Shown here piece by piece: positions 3,409-60,738 of a stretch of 64,000 bases of DNA (within the stretch, counting starts at the first letter, position 1; each line of letters starts with the position of its first letter). The DNA comes from Halobacteriales archaeon QH_7_65_31 (GTDB lineage: Archaea > Halobacteriota > Halobacteria > Halobacteriales > Haloarculaceae), in NCBI GenBank assembly GCA_003021785.1, contig PXQU01000013.1, positions 186,001 to 250,000 of the forward strand. The letters run 5' to 3'. Under the pieces are notes generated by a model, which did no database searches, was not told the DNA's origin, and saw nothing but the letters and a program-made list of their open reading frames with translations. Both the position numbers and the translations under genes were made by a program.

Positions 3409-5271
3409 ATGAGTACACAGGAGTACGACTACGACGAGCTGGGACTCCTCGCCGGGCTGGAGATTCACCAGCAGCTCGACACCGCGACGAAGCTGTTCTG
3501 TAACTGCCCGACACACCGCCGGGAGCCGGTGGAGTCGGCTCGCTCCTTCACGCGGTATCTCCATCCGACACCCTCCGAACTCGGGGAAATAGACGACGCG
3601 GCCCTCGAAGAGTCACGCGTCGACAGAGCGTTCACCTATCTCGGCTACGACTCGACGTGTCTGGTCGAAGCGGACGAGGAGCCGCCGCGCCGGCTCGACG
3701 ACGAGGCGCTGGAGACGACACTCGAGATCGCGAGCCTCCTCGACGCGACGACGGTCGACGGGATGCACGTGATGCGGAAGATCGTCGTCGACGGCTCGAA
3801 CACGTCGGGATTCCAGCGTTCTGCGCTCGTCGCCACGGAAGGAGAGATTCAGACCGACGAGGGACCGGTCGGGATCGAAGACCTACTGCTCGAAGAGGAG
3901 TCCGCGGCTCGTATCGCGGAGACCGACGACAGTGTCACGTTCGGACTCGATCGGCTCGGTATCCCGCTGGTCGAGATCGGGACGAAGCCGGACATCCGTT
4001 CGCCGGCACAGGCGCGTGACGCCGCCGCCCGCATCGGTATGCTGCTCCGCTCGACGGGGAAGGTGAAACGCGGTCTCGGGACGATTCGTCAGGACGTGAA
4101 CGTCTCTATCGCGGACGGGGCACGCGTCGAACTCAAAGGCGTCCAGTCGCTCGACGACATCGAGGCGATCGTCCGCGAGGAAGTGGGCCGACAGGTCACG
4201 CTCCTCGATATCGCGGCCGAGCTCGACGCGCGCGACGCGTCCGTCGCCGAGCCACGGAACGTAACGGACGTGTTCACAGACACCGACTCCGGTGTCATCG
4301 CAGGTGCAGCATCCGTGCAGGCCGTCCGACTCGACGGGTTCGACGGGCTGGTCGGCCGGGAGATCCAGCCCGATCGCCGACTCGGGACCGAGCTGTCCGA
4401 CCACGCGAAACGTCAGGGCGCGGGCGGGATCTTCCACACCGACGAGCTGCCGGCGTACGGCGTCACCGACGAGGAGGTCGATACCCTCCGTGCGGCCGTC
4501 GACGCCGACGACGAGGATGCAGTCGCACTCGTCGCTGCCGACGATGACGTGGCCGCGCGAGCGATCGCCGCTGTCGCCGACCGCGCACGCACGGCGACTG
4601 AGGGCGTCCCCGAGGAGACGCGCGACGCGCTACAGGACGGGACCTCGCGGTATCTCCGCCCGCTCCCGGGCGCCGCGCGGATGTACCCGGAGACGGACGT
4701 TCCGGAGATCCGTCCCGAGCCGGGCGACATCGAGCCGCCGGAGCTGTTGACCGAGCGTGTCGAGCGGTATCAGTCCGACGACGGACTGGGGGAGGCCTTG
4801 GCAGAACAGGTCGCGTTCGGCCAGTTCATGCCGCTGTACGAGCGAGCGGTCCGCGAGGGGGTCGATCCGACGTTCGCTGCGACGACGCTCGAATCCACGC
4901 TGACGGAGCTTCGCCGCGACGACGTGTCCGTCGAGCTGCTTGACGACGCTCAGCTGCTCGCCGTGATGCAGTTAGTCGAGAGCGGCGATCTCGCACAGGA
5001 GGGTGTCAACGAGGTACTGACGACGCTGGCGGACGATCCCGATCTCTCGGCAGAAGCGGCGGTCAAGGCGGCCGGCCTCTCGGGCGTCAGCGAGGACGAG
5101 GTTCGTGAGGCGGTCGTCGAGGTCGTCGAGCGCAACGCCGAGCAGGTCGAAGCGGAGGGGATGGCGGCCTTCTCCGGGCTGATGGGCGAGGCGATGGGCG
5201 CGCTCCGGGGGAAGGCCGACGGCGAAGTCGTCTCCGCCGCCCTGCGCGAGGAGATACAGAAGCGGAGCTAA
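3409..5271 (+). CDS. gatE: Glutamyl-tRNA(Gln) amidotransferase subunit E
   Basis: A 620-residue protein that forms, with GatD, the archaeal enzyme converting Glu-tRNA(Gln) to Gln-tRNA(Gln). The N-terminal kinase half starts DELGLLAGLEIHQQLDT and has the zinc-site pattern LFCNCPTH near residue 35. The GatB/GatE signature LDRLGIPLVEIGT is at about residue 180. An insert of AspRS type follows, and the C-terminal tail of about 150 residues is YqeY-like and ends GLMGEAMGALRGKADGEVV. The ATG at 3409 is chosen over an in-frame upstream start at 3382 because family members begin just before the conserved YDELGLLAG. gatD is not in the window. The stop overlaps that of the convergent trmJ-like gene. 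Confidence 0.96.
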   Translation: MSTQEYDYDELGLLAGLEIHQQLDTATKLFCNCPTHRREPVESARSFTRYLHPTPSELGEIDDAALEESRVDRAFTYLGYDSTCLVEADEEPPRRLDDEALETTLEIASLLDATTVDGMHVMRKIVVDGSNTSGFQRSALVATEGEIQTDEGPVGIEDLLLEEESAARIAETDDSVTFGLDRLGIPLVEIGTKPDIRSPAQARDAAARIGMLLRSTGKVKRGLGTIRQDVNVSIADGARVELKGVQSLDDIEAIVREEVGRQVTLLDIAAELDARDASVAEPRNVTDVFTDTDSGVIAGAASVQAVRLDGFDGLVGREIQPDRRLGTELSDHAKRQGAGGIFHTDELPAYGVTDEEVDTLRAAVDADDEDAVALVAADDDVAARAIAAVADRARTATEGVPEETRDALQDGTSRYLRPLPGAARMYPETDVPEIRPEPGDIEPPELLTERVERYQSDDGLGEALAEQVAFGQFMPLYERAVREGVDPTFAATTLESTLTELRRDDVSVELLDDAQLLAVMQLVESGDLAQEGVNEVLTTLADDPDLSAEAAVKAAGLSGVSEDEVREAVVEVVERNAEQVEAEGMAAFSGLMGEAMGALRGKADGEVVSAALREEIQKRS

Positions 5272-6779: not shown

Positions 6780-7907
6780 ATGCGAACAGTGGACGCGGCA
6801 GGGCTACAGATCGGTGACGACCAACCGACCCGCATCATGGGGGTGCTCAACGTCTCGAAGGAGTCGCCGTACGACCCGAGCGTGTTCGACGACCCGGGCG
6901 AAGCCGCGACCTACGTCGACGAGCAGCTCATCGACGAGGGGGCCGATATCGTCGATATCGGTCTCGAATCCGCGAACAAGCGGTTCGAAGTGCTCGACGC
7001 GGAGGGGGAGCTCGACCGGCTCGACACCGCGCTCGAAACGCTCGATTCCGTCTCCGGTGACGCCGTCTTCTCCATCGAGACGCGCTATCACGAGGTGGCC
7101 GAAGCCGCGCTCGACGGCGGCTTCGACATGGTGAACGACATCTGTGGCTTCGCCGATCCGAAGATGCCGGAGGTGTGTCGCGAGTACGACGTCGCCGTCG
7201 GCAAGATGGCGTCACCGCCGGATCTCGAACGACCCGGCGCGATCGAGGACGTAGACGACATCTACGACGCGCTCACACGAAACGGGCTGACGGACAAGAC
7301 GATCGTCGATCCGGCCTTCGGCGGCTGGTCGGAGGCGAAGACGGTCGAAGACGACCGCGAGACGTTCGAGCGACTGCGCGAGTTCCGCGGCTACGGTCTC
7401 CCGATACTCGTCTCGATCAACCGGAAGAACTTCCTTCGTAGTCTCGCCGGCCGCGACACCGACGGGGCGTTGCCGGTATCGCTCGCAGCGACGGCGATGG
7501 CGATCGAACGCGGTGCACACGTCGTCCGAACCCACGACGTAGCTGAGACCGTTGACGCCGCTCGCATCGGTGACCGGTTCACGCCTGACCGCACTCGCGA
7601 CGAGACTGTCGGCGTCGAGGAGCTGGACGTGCAGACGCCCGGCGACGCGAGTCGTCACCTCGACCGCATCGACGCCGACGGCGACCCCGAAACGGCCGTC
7701 ACGCGCGTCTTCGAGTTCACGGATCTCGACGCCGCCGAGCGCGACGCGCTCGCGTCACTGGAGACGACAGTTCCCGGGATCGAGATCGCCCGCGGCGAGA
7801 CCGGCGTGCTCGTCTTCGGAACCGCCGCCGCGCTTCGGGCCGCGAGCCGCGAGGCCGACGGTCGTCTCAGCACTCGGCTGAACGCCGTACACGGGGGGTC
7901 CGAGTGA
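6780..7907 (+). CDS. folP: Dihydropteroate synthase with C-terminal extension
   Basis: A 375-residue protein. Residues 1-265 are a DHPS barrel that joins p-aminobenzoate to the pterin pyrophosphate: GVLNVSKESPYD near residue 20 (the pterin/diphosphate loop), VDIGLES near 57, NDICGFAD near 120 and SINRKNFL near 213 with the Lys/Asn pair. About 110 residues follow (VGVEELDVQTPGDASRHL onward) that are not part of ordinary DHPS. They are acidic and have no motif I know. The neighbour downstream is mptE, which supplies the pterin pyrophosphate, so the two are functionally consecutive steps. The ATG at 6780 directly precedes the conserved N-terminus. Confidence 0.9.
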   Translation: MRTVDAAGLQIGDDQPTRIMGVLNVSKESPYDPSVFDDPGEAATYVDEQLIDEGADIVDIGLESANKRFEVLDAEGELDRLDTALETLDSVSGDAVFSIETRYHEVAEAALDGGFDMVNDICGFADPKMPEVCREYDVAVGKMASPPDLERPGAIEDVDDIYDALTRNGLTDKTIVDPAFGGWSEAKTVEDDRETFERLREFRGYGLPILVSINRKNFLRSLAGRDTDGALPVSLAATAMAIERGAHVVRTHDVAETVDAARIGDRFTPDRTRDETVGVEELDVQTPGDASRHLDRIDADGDPETAVTRVFEFTDLDAAERDALASLETTVPGIEIARGETGVLVFGTAAALRAASREADGRLSTRLNAVHGGSE

Positions 7908-27604: not shown

Positions 27605-28630
27605 TCAGAGGAGCGAGTATATCTGCGCCTCGTACGTCTCTCTGACCCGGTCCCCCCAGTTGTGGGTGTAGGTATCGATGATATCGTCCGCCACGTCGCC
27701 GCGGAGGTATTTGACGATGCCTCGGTCCCCGGTGCGGTCGCGGAGATGCGTCGTGAAGAAGTGCCGGAAGTAGTGGGGAGTGACGTTCTCTTCCGGCCCG
27801 CCGCCCGCCCGATACCAGCCGCGGTCGGCGGCGTGCGTCTGGACTCGCTGCCCCACCATCCCGATCGTAAGCCGCCGGCCCCACTCGCTCGTTGAGCAGA
27901 ACAGCGGCTCACCAGCGGCCAACGTCTCCGGACGAACCGCGAGCCACCGTTTGAGAACCCGTTTCAGCTCACCGTCGACGGGGACGACGGTCGCACGCCG
28001 GCGCTTGTTCGATTCGATCCGCTCCTCGCCGTTCACGACGGTCCCGCGAGACGGCTTCGATGAGATGTACAGCGAGTCCGGTCGTCCGTCCAGCGCACCG
28101 CGATGCGGCGTATCGAACGTCTCCCGTACCTCTGTGTCGTCGAGATAGAGGTCTCGGAGATCGAGGTTACAGAGCTCGCCGACGCGCATTCCGGTCTTGA
28201 GTAGCCCGACGACGACGGCCTGATCCAGTGGGTGTTCGATAGCGGCGACGAACTCACGCATCGCGGGAAGCATGATCTCGCGACGAGCGGGATCGGCGTC
28301 GATCGACTCCTCCATCTCTTCTAACACAAGCGTCATCGGATTCTGCTCGAAGACGCCAACCTGCGTCATGTAGCCGTAAAACCGGTGGAGATAGGACGCG
28401 TAGGAAGCGACCGTCGATGGGGCACGACCTTCCCGGAGCGTATGGACCCACGCCATGCAGCCGCGCTGTGAGGCGTCGGTGAGTGAGCCGCCTCGTTCCT
28501 GCCGGATGAAGCTCTCGAACTCCCGAAGCACCCGCTCGTACGCCTCACGCGTCCGCTCGGTCTTCCCGTGATAGGTGAGGTCTTCGAGGAAGTAGTCGAC
28601 TGGGTCCTCGATCGGAGCGGTTTCACTCAT
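27605..28630 (-). CDS. Tyrosine recombinase (XerC/D-like, archaeal)
   Basis: A 341-residue site-specific recombinase. The SAM-like N-terminal DNA-binding domain (about 10-110) has TREAYERVLREFESFI. In the catalytic domain, the first Arg is in LLKTGMRVGELCNLDL near 167, the H-x-x-R box is HYFRHFFTTHL near 291 and the nucleophilic Tyr is in IDTYTHNW near 325. It is coupled to an upstream small gene by an eight-base overlap. Integrases of this type also persist on haloarchaeal chromosomes without a provirus. I see no attachment repeats here, so a chromosome or replicon-resolution role is as likely as element mobility. Confidence 0.88.
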   Translation of the reverse strand: MSETAPIEDPVDYFLEDLTYHGKTERTREAYERVLREFESFIRQERGGSLTDASQRGCMAWVHTLREGRAPSTVASYASYLHRFYGYMTQVGVFEQNPMTLVLEEMEESIDADPARREIMLPAMREFVAAIEHPLDQAVVVGLLKTGMRVGELCNLDLRDLYLDDTEVRETFDTPHRGALDGRPDSLYISSKPSRGTVVNGEERIESNKRRRATVVPVDGELKRVLKRWLAVRPETLAAGEPLFCSTSEWGRRLTIGMVGQRVQTHAADRGWYRAGGGPEENVTPHYFRHFFTTHLRDRTGDRGIVKYLRGDVADDIIDTYTHNWGDRVRETYEAQIYSLL

Positions 28631-51498: not shown

Positions 51499-51572
51499 GG
51501 GCCGATAGCTCAGCCCGGCAGAGCGACTGGCTCTTAACCAGTCGGTCAAGGGTTCAAATCCCTTTCGGCCCG
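51499..51572 (+). tRNA. tRNA-Lys (anticodon CUU)
   Basis: Acceptor arms GGGCCGA (51499-51505) and TCGGCCC (51565-51571) pair over seven positions, with G as discriminator at 51572 and no encoded CCA. The anticodon stem ACTGG/CCAGT encloses CTCTTAA, anticodon CTT, so it decodes AAG as lysine. The T-loop GGTTCAAATCC and the D-arm AGCTC...GAGC are normal. No intron. A TATA-like GGTATATCC lies at 51463-51471. The gene marks the left side of the accessory island, a common integration site for archaeal elements. Confidence 0.95.
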
Positions 51573-51643
51573 GCAGGGGGTCGTCGAAGGAACAGATACC
51601 GAATCAGTGCGGTCGGCATCGTAGTGTGTCGGTTTTTTCAGTT

Positions 51644-51650
51644 GGAGGTG
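51644..51650 (+). promoter_or_regulatory. Shine-Dalgarno site of the zinc-ribbon gene
   Basis: GGAGGTG, seven bases before the GTG at 51658. The same heptamer recurs at 52307 and 52954 and as GGAGGT at 53468, each 6-8 bases before a start, marking one translational style for this operon. Confidence 0.75.
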
Positions 51651-51657
51651 TCGGTGC

Positions 51658-51777
51658 GTGACGATCTCGCTCGAAGACTGCTCCTGTGGAACCCCGAAGC
51701 GACGCGTCACCGCCGACGGCTCGGCCTACTGTGGCCGCTGTGGTGGCTCGCTCGGCGGCATGGAGGGGTCGCGATGA
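51658..51777 (+). CDS. 39-residue zinc-ribbon microprotein
   Basis: Starts GTG (VTISLEDCSCGTPKRRV) and continues TADGSAYCGRCGGSLGGM to EGSR. The four cysteines form C-x-C...C-x-x-C, a one-domain zinc ribbon. The start is supported by a perfect GGAGGTG seven bases upstream, and the stop overlaps the ATG of the next gene (ATGA, 51774-51777). Shorter than usual gene-calling limits. First gene of the five-gene island operon; it probably acts as an adaptor or DNA/RNA-binding peptide, which is inference. Confidence 0.75.
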   Translation: MTISLEDCSCGTPKRRVTADGSAYCGRCGGSLGGMEGSR

Positions 51778-52331
51778 GCTGCGACCGCTGTGGTTCTCGC
51801 ACGCCCTGGAACACGCTCTGCAAGCAGTGCGCGCTTCGAGAGCGTCACACGCCAGCGCGAGACGCCGACGCCGACACAGCGGCAACTGACGATCCGAACG
51901 AGTATCGCTGCTGTGCGTGCGAGACGGAATATCTCGATGACGGGTTGAGCGGCTGTCCGAACTGCGGCTCGAAACGCCGCCAGTACATCGGTGAACTGGC
52001 GACTGACGGCGGTCGGTGCGTGGCCGGGACTGATCATTTCGATACTCACTGTAGCCGGTGTGGGGGCGAGTATCCTAATAAACGCGAAAACGCGCTCTGC
52101 GAGTCCTGTGTGAAGTACATCCAGATGTCCAAGCTCATGGACGGTGTCCCGTGTGACCGGTGCAACGGTAGCGGTTGGATCTACGGGACAATCTGCGACA
52201 TCCGACGAGCGATGAACCGCCACGACACATGCTGCCCGGAATGTCACGGGAGCGGCCATGTTGCTTGGGAGCCGGACCCCGACGACGTTCATCCCGACCT
52301 CCGAACGGAGGTGAAGGCACGTGTTGAGTGA
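51774..52331 (+). CDS. Multi-zinc-ribbon protein with DnaJ-type CxxCxGxG repeats
   Basis: A 185-residue cysteine-rich protein. Zinc-binding pairs in order: CDRCG and CKQC (residues 3-25), CCACETEYLDDGLSGCPNCG near 50, CSRCGGEYPNKRENALCESC near 92, and two DnaJ-like knuckles CDRCNGSGW near 127 and CPECHGSGH near 152. The start ATG 51774 overlaps the microprotein stop and is preceded by GGAGGGG. The stop lies inside the next gene (overlap 52321-52331). I expect a structural or nucleic-acid-binding protein; no catalytic residues are visible. Confidence 0.85.
   Translation: MSCDRCGSRTPWNTLCKQCALRERHTPARDADADTAATDDPNEYRCCACETEYLDDGLSGCPNCGSKRRQYIGELATDGGRCVAGTDHFDTHCSRCGGEYPNKRENALCESCVKYIQMSKLMDGVPCDRCNGSGWIYGTICDIRRAMNRHDTCCPECHGSGHVAWEPDPDDVHPDLRTEVKARVE
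52307..52313 (+). promoter_or_regulatory. Shine-Dalgarno site of the DUF6884 gene
   Basis: GGAGGTG seven bases before the GTG at 52321, inside the end of the upstream gene. It selects GTG 52321 over the adjacent TTG at 52324. Confidence 0.7.
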
Positions 52332-52974
52332 CGACACTGGGCGCTGTCTCGATTGCGGCCACCGGCTCCCGCCGAGCGGTGGTATCGAGAGCGCGGTTAC
52401 TCAAGAGGATGGTCGGTACTGCTACGACTGCGTTGATACCCCTCGACTCGCCCTCGTCGGGTGTGGCTCCGTGAAGCAGGACCTCGACGACGGGGAGACT
52501 GTCCCGGCAAAGAACCTCTACACGTCGCCGTACTTCTCGCTGAAGCGGGAGTACGCTGAGAAGTGCTGTGACGAGTGGAAGATACTCTCCGCGAAACACG
52601 GCCTGCTCGATCCCGAAACAGAGATCGAGAGCTACGATGCCTCACTGACCCCGCGCTCGGACAGTTACATCGGCGACTACGAGACCGGCGTATGGGCCGT
52701 CGAGACCGCACAGTCGCTCTATGTGTGGACTTCAACAAAGATTCCGTACACGCACTACGTGGTGCTCGCCGGCGAGGACTACATCGGCCACCGCCACATC
52801 GAGGACAAACTCGACAGTCTTCGACACGTCGCGTTCCCGTTCCGCCGAGACGCTCTCGGCGGGATCGGGGATCAGCAGCGTTGGCTCCGCGAGGAGATCG
52901 ACAGCTACCACCCACCCGGACAGGCCGGTCTTGACCACTACGCCGTCGCTGACGGAGGTGAACAGGATGAGTGA
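52321..52974 (+). CDS. DUF6884-family protein with N-terminal zinc knuckle
   Basis: A 217-residue protein. An N-terminal knuckle CLDCGHRLPPSGG with YCYDC binds zinc. The DUF6884 core follows: LALVGCGSVKQDLD near residue 42, NLYTSPYFSLKREYAEKCCD near 67 (shortened YTSPYFSLKREYAEK), WKILSAKHGLLDPETEIESY near 85 and YVVLAGEDYIGH near 145. The G-C-G-S-x-K start and A-K-H-G-L motif suggest a base- or nucleoside-handling Rossmann-like fold, which is inference. Start selected by a Shine-Dalgarno site. Common in haloarchaeal plasmids and proviruses. Confidence 0.85.
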   Translation: MLSDDTGRCLDCGHRLPPSGGIESAVTQEDGRYCYDCVDTPRLALVGCGSVKQDLDDGETVPAKNLYTSPYFSLKREYAEKCCDEWKILSAKHGLLDPETEIESYDASLTPRSDSYIGDYETGVWAVETAQSLYVWTSTKIPYTHYVVLAGEDYIGHRHIEDKLDSLRHVAFPFRRDALGGIGDQQRWLREEIDSYHPPGQAGLDHYAVADGGEQDE

Positions 52975-53485
52975 CGAGCGGGACGCTCCTCTTCGAACGA
53001 CCTACTTCGGCGGCCTCGGCTCCCTCATCAAGCCAACCGACGACAATCTCGTGCTCGCGGTCGTCCGGAACCCTCACGAGTTCGTTAACGACGTTGCCGA
53101 CCGCACCGTTCCGGCGGTCGCCCCGCCGACCAACCTCCTCGATGCCTACAAACGCGTCGAAGAGGCCGCCGAATCCGACGATCTCCCGAATCCCAGCGGT
53201 GTCGCATGGCGCTCCGTCGGCTTCGGCCGACGATATCGCGAGCATCTCGAACAGCCCGGTCAGCAACAGGTCATCGAGACGCTTCGTGATAAGGCGCGCG
53301 AGACGCGCGTGTGGCTCGTCTGCTACGAGAAGAACCCGCAGTGGTGTCACCGGCGGCTGCTCGCCGACGAGCTCGCCACGGACGATCTTGCTGTCGCACA
53401 TCACCCCGAGCCGTCCACGGAGATCGACGCGGAGAGCGGCCGGCGGGACGCGAGACTCACCGAGTTCGGAGGTACAGAACAGTGA
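52967..53485 (+). CDS. DUF488-family protein
   Basis: A 172-residue protein, start MSDERDAPLRTTYFGGLGSL, preceded by GGAGGTG at 52954-52960. TTYFGGLGSLIKP and the later VWLVCYEKNPQWCHRRLLAD near 125 (shortened CYEKNPQWCHRRLLA) are the DUF488 hallmarks, with the conserved Cys, Glu, Cys-His and Arg residues that would form an active or metal site. Function unknown. It overlaps the DUF6884 gene by eight bases and the next gene by four, so stoichiometric co-expression is expected. Confidence 0.85.
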   Translation: MSDERDAPLRTTYFGGLGSLIKPTDDNLVLAVVRNPHEFVNDVADRTVPAVAPPTNLLDAYKRVEEAAESDDLPNPSGVAWRSVGFGRRYREHLEQPGQQQVIETLRDKARETRVWLVCYEKNPQWCHRRLLADELATDDLAVAHHPEPSTEIDAESGRRDARLTEFGGTEQ

Positions 53486-55143
53486 GCGACCACGTCGAGA
53501 CGCACGCTCACGAATTACAGGGCAATCTGCTCTACACCCAGCACAACGATGCTCCCTACTGGGCGATGCGCTCGCTCTATAATGCGTTCGACGGAGGATC
53601 GTACTCAACGTTCGTCGAAGTTGACGGTGAAGAGTGGAAAATAGAGCTGTCATACCAGCGGTCAGGGGTCGCTCCGCGACCCAGTGACGATGTCCGACGA
53701 CTCTACGAATACCGGCTGAAAGCCGACGGTGCGAATCGAAGAACAATATCTGGCCGGATGCAGCCTCGCTTCGAGACCATGCACAAGTTCGACAACGACG
53801 CCGTTGAGACGGTCACCGACGAACTTGGTAACCCGGTCAAGATTCAGTCTGTCCCAAGCGACCTCGGTGCTGGGGTCAATTGGAGATTCGACGGCGTGGC
53901 GAACATCGAGCCGACCGACCTGCCGCGACTGCTCTCGCTCATCATGACTGCGACCGCTGATTCTCTCGGTCACCAGTGGGACTCGCAGTTCTTCCGAGGT
54001 CGTCCACATCGTTACTCGTGTGTCACCGACTACGAGCGGTACGTGCGGCTCCGACGCGACTGCACGAGTCAGCTCATCGACCCAACGGGCGCGTTCTCAC
54101 GCATCCGCGAGCTGCTCGCTGACCAGCAGGGAACGAAGATGGATATCTCGATTGATAACACGGGGAAAAACAAGCAGATCGAGGGCTACAATCACCAGTA
54201 TCGGCTCAACGAGTACTGCGCGAATCAGCTACTACCCGGTGGGCAGAACGGCAAGCAACTGAAGCACTACCACCCGGAGTACGTCCACGAAGACGCAACA
54301 GACCCGCTTTACCATCCGAAGTTCGGCGTTCTGTTCAAGAAAGCGTGGAACAACGGTAGATCGATTCCGTGGCGCGACCTCGACGAACTCACCCACGAGT
54401 TAGAAGAAACTATAATGAACGTCCTCTCGTGGTCTGGCCTTCCCGTGAAGGCTGGCTCTCCGACGTTCGTCTCCGACGACTGCTTTGACGCCGACGCGAG
54501 AAGCGATCTCGATATCGGCTGGTACGACGATCCCACGCCGGATATCGAGAGCAGTCAGGAATCACTCTTCGTTCGTAAGATCACCGAGCTGACCGGCGGC
54601 GAGGAGGACGTACTCCGCCAGCTGACGACAGACGGCGGCTCGGCCGAGTACGACGACCTCGCTGACGATGCTGGGGTCTCGATCTCAACACTCTACCGCG
54701 CGCTCGACCGCGTCGATGAACTCGTGGATTCCGACAACGGCACGGTCTCGTTCATCTCCGAGCACGCTCACAAGATGTTCCGCCGCGTCCTCAAGCGGGC
54801 TGAGCGGACCATCAGCACGGCTGCGAAGGCCGCTGGTCGCGTGCTCGATATGGACCCCCGCCGCATCGAAGAGCAGGGAAGCGCGTTCCAAGCGTGGCTC
54901 AACGAGTACGCTGTCGATGTGGTCGAGTCCAGTAGCGACCAAGTGAAGATCAAGATTGGGGCGATGCTCTCCCGGTTCAAATCAACCGCTGAACCTACGC
55001 TCGAAGACGTGATACACTATGGTCGAATCTGCTGGAACCGCTCCGGACGCGGCGATGTGCTCGATTGGCACTTCGTCACGGTCACGGCGGAGATCGACGG
55101 CTCGGTTGAGACGTTCAACGCGGGGTCGGTTCTCCCCGACTGA
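53482..55143 (+). CDS. Large island protein with C-terminal winged helix (DUF7845-like)
   Basis: A 553-residue protein from the GTG at 53482 (Shine-Dalgarno GGAGGT at 53468). The N-terminus HVETHAHELQGNLLYTQHND and YWAMRSLYNAFDGGSY is recurrent in haloarchaeal mobile elements; I associate it with DUF7845. Residues 395-455 are a winged helix: EEDVLRQLTTDGGSAEYDDL, GVSISTLYRALDRVDELV. The rest, including QYRLNEYCANQLLPGGQNGK and SRFKSTAEPTLEDVIHYGRI, has no catalytic motif I know. A replication-initiation or partition-like role would fit its place next to the hairpin-rich region, but that is inference. Confidence 0.75.
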   Translation: MSDHVETHAHELQGNLLYTQHNDAPYWAMRSLYNAFDGGSYSTFVEVDGEEWKIELSYQRSGVAPRPSDDVRRLYEYRLKADGANRRTISGRMQPRFETMHKFDNDAVETVTDELGNPVKIQSVPSDLGAGVNWRFDGVANIEPTDLPRLLSLIMTATADSLGHQWDSQFFRGRPHRYSCVTDYERYVRLRRDCTSQLIDPTGAFSRIRELLADQQGTKMDISIDNTGKNKQIEGYNHQYRLNEYCANQLLPGGQNGKQLKHYHPEYVHEDATDPLYHPKFGVLFKKAWNNGRSIPWRDLDELTHELEETIMNVLSWSGLPVKAGSPTFVSDDCFDADARSDLDIGWYDDPTPDIESSQESLFVRKITELTGGEEDVLRQLTTDGGSAEYDDLADDAGVSISTLYRALDRVDELVDSDNGTVSFISEHAHKMFRRVLKRAERTISTAAKAAGRVLDMDPRRIEEQGSAFQAWLNEYAVDVVESSSDQVKIKIGAMLSRFKSTAEPTLEDVIHYGRICWNRSGRGDVLDWHFVTVTAEIDGSVETFNAGSVLPD

Positions 55144-55553
55144 GACGGCCCTGGTGAGAGGCATCACTATCCAGCGCGGGTTTTCCTGTTCCTAATCGGT
55201 CGCTTCAGACCTTCTGCGCACTGTTTCTTATTTCGCCGTGTCGAACCCCCGTTTCAGTTGGAGTCTCGCGTAGTTCCGCGAGGCCCAGAGTCCGGTGTTC
55301 GGCGCGGTGCTGTTCCCGGCAAATGGGAACACCCCCTTAGCAAGTGTGGCTAAGGCCACCAGTAGGTAATCTAAACAGCCCCGCCCCCGCGGCGCGCAAA
55401 AAATTCCACTCGAAGAAACAGGGGGTCAGTCACGGGCGAGCGCGCGTCTACGGCTGCACGTCCGCTTCCGCGTCCGTGTTCGTACCGACACGTATCCGCG
55501 GATGTGGAGACGTGTGCCGGCTCGAACACCCATATCCTACTCGCTGATCCTCT
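55144..55553. other. Hairpin-rich noncoding region of the island
   Basis: Four inverted repeats lie close together: CTCGCG/CGCGAG (55265-55282), TGTTCCC/GGGAACA (55311-55331), CCTTAGC/GCTAAGG (55335-55355) and CGTGT/ACACG (55475-55492). A GC-rich stretch follows the third (CCCCGCCCCCGCGGCGCGC) and then an A-run. It separates the rightward operon from the leftward genes, so it could hold transcription terminators for both, or a replication origin for the element. I see no ORF with coding character. Confidence 0.55.
55265..55355. repeat. Three consecutive hairpins
   Basis: Stems of six, seven and seven perfect pairs with loops of six, seven and seven bases, within 91 bases. The second and third are only three bases apart and could stack. 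Equal loop sizes make coincidence less likely. Confidence 0.6.
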
Positions 55554-56186
55554 TCAGGGAAAATCGACCTGTTCAACGACATCAACTGGCGGCTCCATCA
55601 CGACTTCCCAAGTCGGTGTATCAGAACCGGCTTCTCCCTTCCAGTATTGTCTTGCATTTGCAAGACCAGATCCAATATGAGATAGTTGAATAAGATCCAT
55701 ATCATGGAGTTCATACTTATTACATCTTAGTTTGAAAACAGCCTGATTTTCATCTCGGTGCTCTGTAATAAATTGTTCTGCATCTTCTAGACTGGGCCAC
55801 GCATAGTAACTCTGGAATCGAGACTGTGCTTCTTCAAACTCGGCCCTTCTTATAAGTTCAAATATCCACTCATATTGTACTTGATACGGGAGCGTTTTCT
55901 GCTTCCCTCTGGCTCCCTCCTCAGTATCAATAAAATCGAACACCCCGCTCATCGCTTCCCATCCCTCATTGAGCAAAGCTCCATCATCCACTATTAGCGC
56001 TGACTGTGCATACCGTGCGCCGTGCCTCGATAGTCCATTTGGATACTCCTTTTTCAATATCTCCTCGTTCGAATCTGGTGACCCTGTTATCACACGATTC
56101 TTGATTCGAGGCGGCCACTCAAGCTCCATCGATTCACCTGCTTCCAGTTCTCCGTGTTTATCGACGTGATAGAAGGTTTCAGTCAT
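55554..56186 (-). CDS. DUF2441-like protein, possible ADP-ribosyltransferase-fold
   Basis: A 210-residue protein. TFYHVDKHGELEAGESMELE at the start, NGLSRHGARYAQSALIVDDG near 50 and EYEWIFELIRRAEFEEAQSR near 106 (shortened) follow the pattern of DUF2441-type proteins: an F-Y-H-V strand, an S-R-H-G turn, and a helix pair. Some such proteins have an ADP-ribosyltransferase-like fold; that link is uncertain. Low GC relative to neighbours indicates foreign origin. Two bases separate its start from the stop of the lipoprotein gene upstream, so they are co-transcribed. Confidence 0.7.
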   Translation of the reverse strand: MTETFYHVDKHGELEAGESMELEWPPRIKNRVITGSPDSNEEILKKEYPNGLSRHGARYAQSALIVDDGALLNEGWEAMSGVFDFIDTEEGARGKQKTLPYQVQYEWIFELIRRAEFEEAQSRFQSYYAWPSLEDAEQFITEHRDENQAVFKLRCNKYELHDMDLIQLSHIGSGLANARQYWKGEAGSDTPTWEVVMEPPVDVVEQVDFP

Positions 56187-56188
56187 AG

Positions 56189-57826
56189 TTATAGGTCGGT
56201 ATATGATTCAATCGATGCCTCCCAGTTCGCCTTCACGTGGATCGTCCCGGAGAACTCGCGCTCTAACTGTGCGCGGAAGTCACGAACAGAGGAATCAGCG
56301 GGAATATCGAACACGATCCAGCCAGATTCAGATTCGCCGGGGTGCATCCCAAACGATCCCGCATACTTCGGTCCACTCACTGGGTCAGCGATATTGTACG
56401 CACTGACTGGACTGTACGATTGCCCGTCAACGACGCCGCTGAAGAACTGTGGTGCGTACGCTCCCTGATTCTCGTCTCCGATATTGCGAGCCGTCACGTT
56501 GATGAATGCGAACGTTCCATCGGCTTCGTAGGTCGGAGACCCATATTCTTCCGTCGTATACGTATCACTGAACGTGGTCAACTCTACGGTGTATGCGACA
56601 TCATCGGGCGAGACGTACGAGTCGCCGAATGCTCGCTGTGCTGCGGTGAAGCTAACCGTCGGTGTGGTGGTAGAAGGCAAGAATCGGTACTCTGAGTCTC
56701 CGATATACGGTTCGCTTGTCGTGACAGAAACATTGGCACTCTCTCCAGCAGGGATGCGTTGATCGATCTTCTGCACCGGTAGCCACTGTTGGTCGCCAGC
56801 GTTTCGGCGCTGTACGAGGCCTCTGAATTCACCATCGGCGTCGCCGATATTCTGTACCGTCGCTGTGAGTTCGCCTTCTGTTCCAATCTGAAGCGAGTCT
56901 GGTATCTGAAGCGTTTCGAATGTGAACTCTGGGAGTGCTGGTGGTTTTGTCTCAATCCACGCAACCTCCGGCTCACTTGATGCAGATGCATCCCATGAGA
57001 GCCGTATGTTGTCACTTATACTCTCAGTTTCAACATCGAAGACTATCCAGCCGCGCACACTGCTATTCGGTGATACGGTGTTACCTGCAATCGTTGTTCC
57101 ATAGATGAACGAATTGAACGTCTTGTCCGGCAGCTCGTCGTTAATCGGGTTCGTGTCGCCCAACGACAGCGTTTCAGCATCCAGATAGATATTCTCGTCC
57201 GTCTGATTCTCAACCTGCAGATCGACGGCAAGAAGCGTCGAATCCATATCAGCGTGGAACAACCCCGTAAGCGTCTCATCCGAGAGCGCCGGGGAGTAGT
57301 TATAAAAGAACGATGGCTGATACCCGCGAACCGATGCCGAAATATCGATATCACCACCGGCGAACTCAGCAGAGTTCCCGAACGTAGTCGTGAGTGTCTC
57401 TACGGCGAGTTCGTGTTCCACAGCATAATCTGTAATCCGGAACGTCAGCGACTGGGCCGCCTCGAAGGACAGTGGTCCGATCTCTGTCGATTTCGACTCG
57501 CCACGAGGAATCTCTGAAATCTGAATACCTTGGTCGATAGACGCGAACCCGTCGCCGACGGTGAGCGTCGCAGTGAAATCGCCTGCTCGACCACCTGTAT
57601 TCGTCGCTTGGATGTTGAGCGAGAAGTCCTCGCCGATAGTGACGGATTCCGGGCCGTTGATTTCCACTCGCTCGAAGTATGGTGGACCATCAGCGGCCGT
57701 GACGACCGTATCCGTGTTGGATTCCCCGCTGCTACCCTCTCCGTCTGTGCCTTCATTGGTGTTACAACCAGCGAAACCCGCCAATGCCGCGGCTCCGAGT
57801 GTTGATATATAGGCGCGTCTGTCCAT
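56189..57826 (-). CDS. Tat lipoprotein with CARDB and two DUF4352-like domains
   Basis: A 545-residue secreted lipoprotein. MDRRAYISTLGAAALAGFAG then CNTNEG gives a twin-arginine signal and lipobox. Two beta-rich units follow, each ending in a similar strand: SVRGWIVFDVETESISDNIR near 260 and ESGWIVFDIPADSSVRDFRA near 505, the W-I-V-F-D-V repeat of DUF4352-like domains. CARDB-like strands lie between them (ELTATVQNIGDADGEFRGLV). The protein is probably anchored outside the cell. GC content is clearly below the window average. Same operon as the DUF2441-like gene. Confidence 0.85.
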   Translation of the reverse strand: MDRRAYISTLGAAALAGFAGCNTNEGTDGEGSSGESNTDTVVTAADGPPYFERVEINGPESVTIGEDFSLNIQATNTGGRAGDFTATLTVGDGFASIDQGIQISEIPRGESKSTEIGPLSFEAAQSLTFRITDYAVEHELAVETLTTTFGNSAEFAGGDIDISASVRGYQPSFFYNYSPALSDETLTGLFHADMDSTLLAVDLQVENQTDENIYLDAETLSLGDTNPINDELPDKTFNSFIYGTTIAGNTVSPNSSVRGWIVFDVETESISDNIRLSWDASASSEPEVAWIETKPPALPEFTFETLQIPDSLQIGTEGELTATVQNIGDADGEFRGLVQRRNAGDQQWLPVQKIDQRIPAGESANVSVTTSEPYIGDSEYRFLPSTTTPTVSFTAAQRAFGDSYVSPDDVAYTVELTTFSDTYTTEEYGSPTYEADGTFAFINVTARNIGDENQGAYAPQFFSGVVDGQSYSPVSAYNIADPVSGPKYAGSFGMHPGESESGWIVFDIPADSSVRDFRAQLEREFSGTIHVKANWEASIESYTDL

Positions 57827-57900
57827 GCAATCTTCTGTAGAGCTTATATAATCAAGCTTCCGGGACTTCGCGTACAGAAATAGACCACAAAACGCCGCAT

Positions 57901-58006
57901 TCAGGCATCGGAGTCGTCGGTTTCCTGCTCCAACAGGTCGCGGACCCGGTCGAAGTGGCGACTAATGTGCTCTGGAAACCGGTTTAACCTTCCCTCGGAA
58001 ACGGGA
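57901..58006 (-). other. Possible small-gene fragment
   Basis: The minus-strand frame reads GRLNRFPEHISRHFDRVRD then LLEQETDDSDA to a TGA at 57901-57903: an amphipathic helix with acidic tail, as in real haloarchaeal proteins. There is no start codon of its own; the frame runs back under the preceding small gene. It may be the C-terminus of that gene separated by a frameshift, or a coupled microgene. Confidence 0.25.
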
Positions 58007-58192
58007 TTACTCGCCGCCGTCGGCCACAGGCTCGCCAGCACGGTCGTTGAGGTACTCTTCGGCGTCGTAGTCCTCAGACTCGCCACTAAGGTCTTCAGCA
58101 AGCGCCTCGCGGATCTTCCCGCGCTGTTCATCCATCTCCTCGCAGAGCGCCTCGATCTCTTCCTCGCTCACTGGTTCCTGATTTCGTGCCAT
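58007..58192 (-). CDS. Small acidic helical protein, tandem paralogue A
   Basis: A 61-residue protein, MARNQEPVSEEEIEALCEEM and so on, ending EPVADGGE. An AGGAGA ribosome site lies eight bases upstream. The paralogue at 58252-58428 has the same start pattern (M-A-x..P-[VM]-[ST]-EEEIE, later EALA-[ED]) and an almost identical leader. Function unknown; size and charge resemble small regulatory proteins of haloarchaeal viruses. Confidence 0.65.
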   Translation of the reverse strand: MARNQEPVSEEEIEALCEEMDEQRGKIREALAEDLSGESEDYDAEEYLNDRAGEPVADGGE

Positions 58193-58251
58193 TTCTCGAA
58201 TCTCCTTGCTTTTTGTTGGTAATGCAATTTTCTTTATTCAGGGAACCGTAG

Positions 58252-58428
58252 TCAGGTATCCGGAGCGGGGAACTCGTAGTCGTCGGGATCGACCTCGAAT
58301 TCTTCAGGCTCGCGGCCAGTCTCGTCCGCGAGAGCTTCGACCATTCGCTCACCGAGTTCATCGGCAGCCTCGGCTACGTCTTCGATTTCTTCCTCGGTCA
58401 TCGGTCGGTCTCGTTCACGTTGTGCCAT
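58252..58428 (-). CDS. Small acidic helical protein, tandem paralogue B
   Basis: A 58-residue protein, MAQRERDRPMTEEEIEDVAE, then EALADETGREPEEFEVDP, ending FPAPDT. AGGAGA is eight bases before the ATG, as for paralogue A; the leader AGGAGATTCGAAAC differs from that of A (AGGAGATTCGAGAA) at two bases. It overlaps the 3' end of the upstream gene by 31 bases. Too short for usual gene calling but well supported by the paralogy. Confidence 0.65.
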   Translation of the reverse strand: MAQRERDRPMTEEEIEDVAEAADELGERMVEALADETGREPEEFEVDPDDYEFPAPDT

Positions 58429-58778
58429 GTTTCGAATCTCCTGATGAGCCGGTCAGCGTGCTCGCGGATGTATGTCGTACAGTAGCGCGGTGCGCGGTTT
58501 AACTCCACCGGCGGGAAGTCGTCTTTCACGCGGTGCTTCTGGCCGTCACGGTAGATGTCCATGTGGAGCCCGTCTTCCGTGATGTCGTGGCCGAACTCCG
58601 TATCGGGGTTGTGGTCAAACCGAACGACCTCAAGCCACTGATCGTCAAGCCAGTATTCCAGTTGGATGAAGAACTGCTCTACGTCGCCCTTGTGCGTCGA
58701 GAGCCCGGCGCGTATCTGCGCGCGCCGATTAATGATCGTCGTGAACTCTCGGTCGTACCCCTCTGGCTCGTCCGTCAT
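58398..58778 (-). CDS. DUF7718-like island protein
   Basis: A 126-residue protein. FTTIINRRAQIRAGLSTHKG, VEQFFIQLEYWLDDQWLEVV and RFDHNPDTEFGHDITEDG (then LHMDIYRDGQKHR) form an alternating strand pattern. I recognise it as a protein repeatedly found in haloarchaeal mobile regions beside the next gene, under a DUF label I believe to be DUF7718. Function unknown. Its start overlaps the upstream stop (ATGA at 58775-58778). Confidence 0.7.
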   Translation of the reverse strand: MTDEPEGYDREFTTIINRRAQIRAGLSTHKGDVEQFFIQLEYWLDDQWLEVVRFDHNPDTEFGHDITEDGLHMDIYRDGQKHRVKDDFPPVELNRAPRYCTTYIREHADRLIRRFETWHNVNETDR

Positions 58779-58975
58779 TCTTCGTCACACACGACCTCTC
58801 GAAGCTCCTCAAGCAAGTCGGGGCGATGCTTTTCAAGCGTTGTAACATCCTGTTCTATCTGCTGAATTCGGTTTCGGACTCGTGAAACTGACTGATACCG
58901 CTTGTCGTCAGGCACGTCCGCTTCGCCAGTGATTCGCTTACGATCTGTCTCTGTCAAGATTGCGGTGACGCTCAT
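58775..58975 (-). CDS. Small helical partner of the DUF7718-like protein
   Basis: A 66-residue protein from the ATG at 58975 (MSVTAILTETDRKRITGEAD, then RYQSVSRVRNRIQQIEQD and LLEELREVVCDEE); a longer frame reaches 59008. Two helices, a coiled-coil-like middle. It is the head of the leftward mini-operon and is regularly found beside the DUF7718-like protein in haloarchaeal islands. The region upstream holds three copies of the half-site TGGGCT. Confidence 0.65.
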   Translation of the reverse strand: MSVTAILTETDRKRITGEADVPDDKRYQSVSRVRNRIQQIEQDVTTLEKHRPDLLEELREVVCDEE

Positions 58976-59007
58976 ACGCTGGTTTTCGGGGGCCATACAC
59001 ATGGACA

Positions 59008-59062
59008 TTGGGCTACAGCGTTATTAGGTTAGTTCATAGCCACACATTAGCCCACAGCCCAA
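59008..59062. promoter_or_regulatory. Half-site cluster TGGGCT upstream of the leftward mini-operon
   Basis: TTGGGCTA at 59008-59015 is repeated inverted as TTAGCCCA at 59047-59054 and AGCCCAA at 59056-59062. Three half-sites in 55 bases in front of a set of small island genes suggest an operator for an element-encoded regulator. No regulator can be named. Confidence 0.4.
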
Positions 59063-59436
59063 CCTTTACACTGCTAGCTATGCGATACTGATACAAGCGC
59101 GGCACGCTTCAGGAAGTGAGGCCGGTGTCACAAGCACCGACCCTGCGCTGGCGAAACCAGCATATCCACGAAGACGCCACCGGCACAAGAATCCGCCGGC
59201 ACGACAGCATCGCTCGTCGAGCATCGAACCCGAAGCAAGTACGGCTATCCCTACAGCTACTACTCCTGCCTCGCGTGTGGCCGCAGGGAGTACGAGCGAA
59301 GCGATCTCGTCGGGTATTGTAGCCCATGAACCGTCGGACCCTCCGCTCGACTATCGGCACGGTTACGATAACTCCCGAGTAGCGAAAGCTACGGCCCGAG
59401 CAGCGACAGGCAAATCGAAAGCCGGCTATCGGGCGT
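59063..59436. other. Right margin of the island, no intact gene
   Basis: Contains the zinc-knuckle remnant ending at 59329 and a perfect GNRA hairpin, GTAGC-GAAA-GCTAC, at 59379-59392. No copy of the tRNA-Lys 3' end is present, so the right attachment site is not visible. The acyl-CoA dehydrogenase gene ends at 59437. Confidence 0.45.
59118..59329 (+). pseudogene. Zinc-knuckle protein remnant
   Basis: The plus-strand frame ends EHRTRSKYGYPYSYYS, then CLACGRREYERSDLVGYCSP: a C-x-x-C knuckle with a third cysteine, aromatic-rich, with protein-like character only in the last 45 codons. No start codon in frame downstream of the TGA near 59116. The upstream part probably was another frame before an indel. 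I do not recognise the family. Confidence 0.35.
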
Positions 59437-60570
59437 TCAGGCCGTCTCGTCGAGCGCGGGATCGAACTGTACGACGTTCTGCATATCGCTGTCGTCCACG
59501 TCCTCGAAGGCGTGGCGGGCGATCGTACGGCGATGCACTTCGTCTGCGCCGTCGACGATACGGAACGGTCGGACGGCCTCGTAAAAATGCGCGACGGGGA
59601 GGTCCTTGCCGATACCGTTTCCACCCAGACACTGGACGGCGAGGTCCATGATCTCGTTCGTCACGTTCGCGGTGAACATCTTGGCCATCGCGACCTCGAT
59701 TCGGGCGTCGCTCTCGTCGAGCTCGCGGGCAGCGTGACGCACCATCGTCCGCGCGCCGTGAAGCTCGGTCTCCGCGGTCGCGATACGGTGGCGTAGCGCC
59801 CGGCCACCGCCGAGGCGAAGCTGTGCGAGCCGGAACCCCTTGTTCTCATCGCCCAGCAGGTTCTCCTCGGGGACACGGACGTTGTCGAACTTGATCTCGG
59901 CGTGCCCGAGTGACACGTCGACAATGCCGTGGCCGCCGAGATGCGGGATATTGCGGACGACATCGACGCCGTCGGTGTCCGTCGGCACGAGAATGATAGA
60001 GGTTCCCTCGTACGGATGGGCGTCGAGATCAGTCCGGGCCATCACGAGCAGGAAATCGGCGTTGTAGCCGTCCGACGACCACCACTTGTGGCCGTTGATG
60101 ACGTACTCGTCCCCGTCCTTGATAGCGGTCGTGCGGAGCATCTTCGGATCGGAGCCGCCGCCGTCCGTCGGCTCCGTCATCGAAAACGCGGACTGCAGCT
60201 CACCCTGCACGAGCGGGCGGAGATACTCCTCTTTCTGGGCCTCGGTCCCCGCCATTTCGAGGGTGTGCATGTTCCCCTCCTGTGGTGCGTTCGCGCGGAT
60301 GGAAAGCGCACCCCACAGCGAGCGACCGACCTGCTCGAAGGAGGGAAGCATATCGCTGAACTCCAGCCCCTGACCGCCGTACTCCTCTGAGACCTGTGGT
60401 GCAAACAGGTCGCGCTCTTTCGCCATCTCCCAGCATTCGTGGAGCTCCTTCTCAGAGATGAGCTCGCCGGTACGGAGCGCCTCCCGCTCGCGAGGGAGCA
60501 CGACCTCCTCCATGAAATCCTCGACACGGCCGGCGACTTCCTTGGCTTTCGCAGAGTCGTGATACTCCAT
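59437..60570 (-). CDS. Acyl-CoA dehydrogenase (ACAD11-like)
   Basis: A 377-residue flavoprotein from the ATG at 60570 (MEYHDSAKAKEVAGRVEDF); a GTG at 60582 would add four residues. EEYGGQGLEFSDMLPSFEQV near residue 66, the FAD loop SAFSMTEPTDGGGSDP near 130, HKWWSSDGYNADFLLVMART near 158 and QCLGGNGIGKDLPVAHFYEA then RPFRIVDGADEVHRRTIAR near 325-350 are complete. It resembles ACAD10/11 enzymes that act on long or 4-hydroxy acyl-CoAs and pair with phosphotransferases like the one at 20971-22044. A TATA-like CATATAGAG lies near 60670. Confidence 0.92.
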   Translation of the reverse strand: MEYHDSAKAKEVAGRVEDFMEEVVLPREREALRTGELISEKELHECWEMAKERDLFAPQVSEEYGGQGLEFSDMLPSFEQVGRSLWGALSIRANAPQEGNMHTLEMAGTEAQKEEYLRPLVQGELQSAFSMTEPTDGGGSDPKMLRTTAIKDGDEYVINGHKWWSSDGYNADFLLVMARTDLDAHPYEGTSIILVPTDTDGVDVVRNIPHLGGHGIVDVSLGHAEIKFDNVRVPEENLLGDENKGFRLAQLRLGGGRALRHRIATAETELHGARTMVRHAARELDESDARIEVAMAKMFTANVTNEIMDLAVQCLGGNGIGKDLPVAHFYEAVRPFRIVDGADEVHRRTIARHAFEDVDDSDMQNVVQFDPALDETA

Positions 60571-60738
60571 ATCACAGTTCACGACCGGAACTATGTAAAA
60601 CTGTATCCGTTCGCTCGCAACTGCAAGCGGAACCGCGACCGCAGGTTTACGCTGTAGTCGAATTCTCTCTATATGGTTTCAGCTGTTGAGTGGCAGTGGT
60701 GTACAGCAGACAGCTGTTCGACAGTCACCGCCATCACG

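Follow-up and report, generated by a model that had tools for sequence, protein, structure and literature searches.

Five overlapping genes behind a tRNA-Lys gene

The stretch of DNA analysed here (the window; 64,000 nucleotides (nt) of contig PXQU01000013.1 from Halobacteriales archaeon QH_7_65_31) harbours a cassette of five open frames on the forward strand (51658-55143), in which neighbouring genes overlap by 4-11 nt. Each is led by a Shine-Dalgarno (SD) signal, as an original prediction from the sequence had described, with GGAGG located 7-9 nt before the start in 5/5 genes: that of gene 1 is GGAGGTG (51644..51650, +), and those of genes 2-5 lie at 51762-51768, 52307-52313, 52954-52960 and 53468-53474 (+). 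The claimed contrast with host genes is backed by the occurrence of GGAGG in the -20 to -1 region of 1/53 other called window genes (random 20-mers, 1.9%), a comparison that covers gene calls from a simple script rather than mapped transcripts. In haloarchaea, internal operon genes with SD signals are expected, and the SD pattern alone is therefore no evidence of a special system.

Gene 1 (51658..51777, +) encodes a 39-residue (aa) CxxC protein, for which a Pfam scan returned a weak match to an SprT-type zinc ribbon (5.5e-4, under the cut-off), and gene 2 (51774..52331, +) encodes a 185-aa protein with several CxxC pairs. Both are rich in CxxC, which makes the predicted pair of zinc-ribbon proteins plausible, but all Pfam matches of this kind are sub-threshold. 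Gene 3 (52321..52974, +) specifies a 217-aa DUF6884 protein with an N-terminal CxxC pair and the motifs CGSVK and LSAKHG, gene 4 (52967..53485, +) a 172-aa DUF488 protein (DUF488-N3a) of a Rep-linked clade, and gene 5 (53482..55143, +) a 553-aa protein with DUF7845 and a winged helix-turn-helix (wHTH) domain, classed as Rep-Arvir by Pfam and alignment. The DUF6884, DUF488 and large wHTH proteins of the original prediction were thus all recovered by Pfam, at 6.5e-24, 1.3e-11 and, through DUF7845, 4e-87, respectively.

Gene 5 as a predicted Rep-Arvir initiator with an SNJ2-type origin

The DUF7845 (PF25227) match of gene 5 reaches 293 bits against a cut-off of 27, and a match to phrog_3288 extends across nearly its whole length (4e-129). 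By tblastn, gene 5 hit 21 phage-collection records, including the pleolipoviruses HRPV-3, HGPV-1, HHPV3, HHPV4 and SNJ2 as well as Harhisp1 and virus LSV-48N. The pL6-family plasmids of Haloquadratum match too, the closest relative found shares 45% identity (genome G126), and a sequence search of solved structures gave no real match. Rep-Arvir was described in 2026 as a family of rolling-circle replication initiators, shown experimentally in the archaeal virus SNJ2 and distantly akin to bacterial Rep_trans (PMC13107129). In our alignment the catalytic Y283 of SNJ2 ORF19 corresponds to Y263 of gene 5, in a column that is invariant across 31 sequences, E25 corresponds to E11, and the DGG motif of the wHTH (D408-G409-G410) to D384-G385-G386. 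The catalytic tyrosine, the N-terminal glutamate and a wHTH with DGG are likewise common to gene 5 and the Rep-Arvir (DUF7845, phrog_3288) proteins HRPV-3 ORF9, pL6 plasmid F3 and that of LSV-48N. Judged by its sequence, gene 5 is a member of the Rep-Arvir family with a predicted replication origin just downstream. The cassette had been put forward as the window's best candidate for an undescribed system, a claim that falls because gene 5 is assigned to these initiators and the operon type has been dissected in SNJ2 (PMC13107129).

The SNJ2 origin is a hairpin 176-197 nt 3' of orf19 that is preceded by an inverted repeat (PMC13107129). At the corresponding place in the window, a conserved element, GGCCCTGGTGAGAGGCATCACTATCC (55147..55172, +; 23/26 bases identical to SNJ2), directly follows the rep stop codon, an inverted repeat, TGTTCCC-N7-GGGAACA (55311..55331, +), is placed as the proposed Rep binding site of SNJ2 and may by analogy serve as one, and a 15-nt origin core, GTGTGGCTAAGGCCA (55344..55358, +), identical to that of SNJ2, starts 201 nt downstream of rep. 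This 15-mer is the sole copy genome-wide, even when one mismatch is allowed, and in most relatives the origin sits 170-200 nt after rep. The hairpin stem GTGGC/GCCAC pairs 55346-55350 with 55355-55359 (+), and compensatory changes (G-C to C-G and others) in the aligned origins of 26 relatives back it. The aligned origins also support a pairing of the loop with CTTA immediately upstream; in the window, the alternative pairing joins 55336-55341 with 55349-55354 (+). Altogether 94.9% of alignment cells pair, a percentage favoured by the selection of rows as good matches to one motif, and 24 double-sided changes were counted versus 7.8 ± 1.8 in shuffles, with slid versions of the pairing reaching at most 50%. 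We saw no mention of the second pairing in the main text of the SNJ2 study (PMC13107129).

The operon starts an insertion at tRNA-Lys

The cassette lies just downstream of a tRNA-Lys(CTT) gene (51499..51572, +; ARAGORN and Rfam), and homology to all five other congeneric genomes stops exactly at 51572, the 3' end of this tRNA. BLAST of the sister loci against the window delimited an insertion of ~7.86 kilobases (kb) (51573..59430) that has the tRNA 3' end as its left border and that sister genomes G004, G002 and G003 lack: the acyl-CoA dehydrogenase gene found at 59430-60688 in the window follows the tRNA at 0.37 kb in G004 and 0.19 kb in G002, and IMPDH comes 0.5 kb after the tRNA in G003. 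A TTTTTT between tRNA and gene 1 (51633..51638, +) is probably the tRNA terminator. A same-strand tRNA occurs within 4 kb upstream in 19/33 Rep loci.

In two congeners the 3' tail of tRNA-Lys is repeated shortly after the tRNA, at 4717 and 4849 (reverse complement) in locus L103 and at 7851, 7952 and 8084 in locus L105; the tRNA therefore appears to be an integration hot spot with traces of earlier integrations.

Recurrence of the operon and comparison with SNJ2

We retrieved 80 neighbourhoods and predicted their genes with a modified score that catches cysteine-rich genes. The common order is a CxxC protein, a putative endonuclease (SNJ2 ORF22 family), DUF488, a small CxxC protein and Rep, followed by convergent virus genes, one of which, the NTPase, shares 79% identity with its SNJ2 counterpart. 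In Natrinema virus SNJ2 (NC_074646) the replication operon comprises orf25-orf19 and is joined to integrase orf1 after excision, and its gp22-gp21(DUF488)-gp20-gp19(Rep) layout is as in the window. Common to both are Rep-Arvir as the last gene of an overlapping operon, DUF488 upstream of it, small CxxC proteins, an origin hairpin some 180-200 nt beyond rep and an operon start at the integration site. Two differences stand out: the window has DUF6884 in the slot of the putative endonuclease ORF22, and its element, unlike SNJ2, has a single tRNA tail and no detected integrase or structural genes. Clear orthology to structural virus genes had been named as a possible counter-finding: known virus genes do have orthologues in the cassette, but these are replication genes, and no homology to structural ones was found among the five. 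Scans of viral contigs with P0003, P0005, P0002 and alignment A1 gave no relatives, the patterns being short and the proteins distant.

The suggestion that the genes form one machine, with replication among the options offered, has held up well, as the order and partners recur widely and the genes correspond to the replication operon of a betapleolipovirus or plasmid-type element. In SNJ2, a nonsense mutation in each of orf19-26, ORF21 included, abolishes genome amplification, and Rep plus origin alone replicate an unstable plasmid (PMC13107129). The SNJ2 operon has its start at the attachment site and is transcribed only after circularisation, from a promoter within the integrase gene (PMC13107129). 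The main text of that study mentions neither DUF488 nor DUF6884 and leaves most operon genes unnamed (PMC13107129); what is new here is the partnership of DUF488 with Rep, the variant with DUF6884 and the second pairing at the origin.

A DUF488 clade linked to Rep

Gene 4 matches DUF488-N3a, a predicted 'active' subclade, at 1.2e-14 (55.0 bits, cut-off 27) and keeps the C..E.....CHR core, with W81, C119 and C127-H128-R129 as invariant residues. It is 54% identical to SNJ2 gp21 (ORF21), which occupies the same operon position. In 31/32 loci of its DUF488 clade, a Rep gene or fragment follows on that strand, usually as the first or second gene after DUF488, a count that leaves out the window, that includes three seeds of the search profile (28/29 loci are independent) and in which two of the 31 positive loci hold a Rep fragment only. 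None of the chromosomal-type DUF488 genes found lies within 20 kb of any Rep match found, and in a tree the Rep-linked DUF488 clade to which gene 4 belongs is split from chromosomal haloarchaeal DUF488 with 100/100 support. In the plasmid collection, no recent autonomous plasmid carrying Rep-linked DUF488 was seen, and a search with the DUF488 sequence against solved structures found no real match.

DUF6884 and DNA methyltransferases in the same operons

Gene 3 contains both family motifs of DUF6884, CxxxK and LSAxxG (named in PMC11701544), as CGSVK and LSAKHG, and shares them with the DUF6884/YaaA/DpdC superfamily. The top solved fold match of its model was E. coli YaaA (5caj; probability 0.99, with E 0.018 and TM 0.39), and a sequence search of solved structures with the DUF6884 profile returned YaaA only, at E 0.32; DUF6884 itself is a YaaA-like fold, and gene 3 is regarded as YaaA/DpdC-like. 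Unlike YaaA and DpdC, it has an extra N-terminal CxxC pair, lacks Dpd partners and is located in a replication operon. DUF6884 of the window type precedes Rep in 4/5 genomes, namely that of the window, G054 (Halapricum hydrolyticum), G121 and G046 (Natronomonas sp. LN261), and not in G247. The order DUF6884, DUF488, Rep of the window recurs within one operon in two other genomes (G279 and G162; loci L201 and L206), contrary to the possibility raised earlier that such pairs never recur.

Since the Pfam domain of DpdC is DUF6884 (PMC11888242), gene 3 might act in 7-deazaguanine DNA modification of the element, as its weak matches to DpdC (2.9e-7) and the YaaA fold match would allow. However, no DpdA or DpdB is encoded near the cassette, and a genome-wide search, made for DpdA and not for DpdB, found only two TGT-family genes in the genome (~90% complete), which are adjacent to one another on another contig, as expected of host archaeosine genes. 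With no DpdA paralogue found in the genome we rejected the Dpd pathway, and such a role for gene 3 is very improbable.

A probable DNA methyltransferase of the cytosine-C5, N4/N6 or Dam type, recognised in part by a DPPY-like motif only, is present in 14/62 distinct Rep operons; counts of DUF6884 and methyltransferase operons come from a sample partly picked for DUF488 and DUF6884 and are not natural frequencies. For the base or nucleotide handling that the original prediction considered for DUF6884 and DUF488, and which they may perform, methyltransferases in this slot speak in favour and the missing DpdA paralogue against. Such enzymes in the same slot, and a methyltransferase between DUF488 and Rep in LSV-48N, would also fit genes 1-4 being a defence or DNA-modification cassette that protects the element or host against invaders or restriction, with Rep merely a gene of the carrier. 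DUF6884 and DUF488 indeed match the PADLOC families PDC-M57A, PDC-M19A and PDC-M45, but PADLOC 'PDC' families are candidates only. Moreover, the near-constant company of Rep places this DUF488 clade outside defence islands, and nonsense mutation of ORF21 (DUF488) halts amplification of the SNJ2 genome (PMC13107129), so that we consider a defence cassette unlikely.

Probable accessory genes of an integrated replicon

We conclude, with a probability of roughly nine in ten, that these five genes make up the replication operon of an integrated element resembling SNJ2 (betapleolipovirus or plasmid type), with genes 1-4 as accessory genes. Rep-Arvir (gene 5) would bind near, and nick within, the hairpin origin ~200 nt 3' of its own gene, and nicking would start rolling-circle replication of the excised circle. 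The two small CxxC proteins and the DUF6884 and DUF488 enzymes, made from the same mRNA, would be accessory factors, and the two enzymes may process or modify replicon DNA, thereby aiding amplification and upkeep. That Rep and origin act in this way and that each operon gene is needed would follow by analogy with SNJ2, where both were demonstrated by others. As the operon starts directly at the tRNA, T6 precedes the first SD signal and the SNJ2 operon needs circularisation, the integrated copy is probably silent for want of a promoter.

Genes 1-4 could instead be a stability or addiction module (toxin-antitoxin-like) for the replicon. The SNJ2 authors propose a module of this kind, on the grounds that Rep suffices for replication but a plasmid lacking the accessory proteins is not retained (PMC13107129), but genes 1-4 match no toxin or antitoxin family, and the enzyme-like conserved residues of DUF488 and DUF6884 are kept. 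We regard this as somewhat less probable still than defence. Accessory DNA-processing or modifying roles of DUF488 and DUF6884 are favoured over both because nonsense mutations in the SNJ2 operon abolish amplification even though Rep and origin can replicate an unstable plasmid; our confidence in the chemistry itself is modest.

Several observations weigh against the conclusion that this is an SNJ2-like replication operon with such accessory enzymes. First, E303, which is essential in SNJ2, corresponds to G282 in gene 5; HRPV3 and HGPV1, which gene 5 resembles in having glycine there, are exceptions at this position (PMC13107129). Second, DUF6884 and DUF488 were found together in just two other loci, the SNJ2 nonsense data could reflect polar effects, a DNA substrate for DUF488 is putative, and its confident structure model (pLDDT 89) has no solved relative in the PDB at E <= 0.001. 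Third, the window holds no second tRNA tail or attachment (att) repeat (the best candidate has 9/24 mismatches), and between 55.15 and 59.43 kb there is no match to an integrase, a relic of one at the right end included, nor to the clusters of spike, VP3 and NTPase proteins from related proviruses. Without a detected integrase, spike and packaging NTPase the element is therefore a stranded or plasmid-like replicon rather than a complete provirus, and lacking a detectable integrase, att repeat and capsid genes the window copy is probably stranded. The same gaps make its current activity doubtful, and the chance that the whole island is a decayed remnant devoid of present function falls only slightly short of even. 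On the other hand, five frames are open, and Rep, its active-site residues and the origin are intact. A remnant would in any case concern present activity and leave the gene identities untouched.

A more tentative proposal, which we think more probably wrong than right, is that archaeal rolling-circle replicons have in Rep-linked DUF488 a dedicated enzyme, which would give DUF488 its first role and would act on new replicon DNA together with DNA-modifying partners that can replace one another (DUF6884 or DNA methyltransferases), and that the pairing of the origin loop with CTTA forms a switch between two exclusive hairpins. With ORF21 recognised as DUF488, of a clade that is almost never found without Rep-Arvir, a widespread family gains a role in replicon amplification that can be tested. 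That DUF6884 and several DNA methyltransferases replace one another in these operons suggests a tie between DNA modification and rolling-circle replication in archaeal elements. To these elements the window contributes a replicon in which Rep and origin are retained and the integrase has seemingly been lost.

Other genes of the insertion and of related loci

Two genes of lower G+C lie within the insertion at 55554-57826 (-), one phrog_5663/DUF2441-like (210 aa) and the other lipoprotein-like (545 aa; DUF4352, CARDB). The right end of the insertion (58007-59008, -) encodes two short acidic proteins, a DUF7718 protein and a phrog_26393 protein, the last with relatives in loci L082, L216 and L219. 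Elsewhere in the window, an integrase-family match (PF00589, 5e-9; 27659-28036, -) falls within a stretch of lowered G+C at 28-34 kb and probably marks another integrated element. In other families, Rep operons (L037, L043, L073, L190 and L224) come after IMPDH and a DUF5794 gene, another recurrent insertion place. Four DUF7845 genes with equal scores are found on contig C4 of genome G078 (3014, 17091, 31168 and 54977), the first three spaced ~14 kb apart, and could be tandem element copies or an assembly effect. In L031, L040, L045, L211 and L214, the Rep operons face a module that includes a large signal-peptide protein (500-1150 aa), and in several of these loci the module also encodes an ATPase of ~441 aa (weak phrog_22963) and two further conserved proteins. 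The phage collection contains no match to this ATPase, and these loci possibly represent an undescribed virus type.

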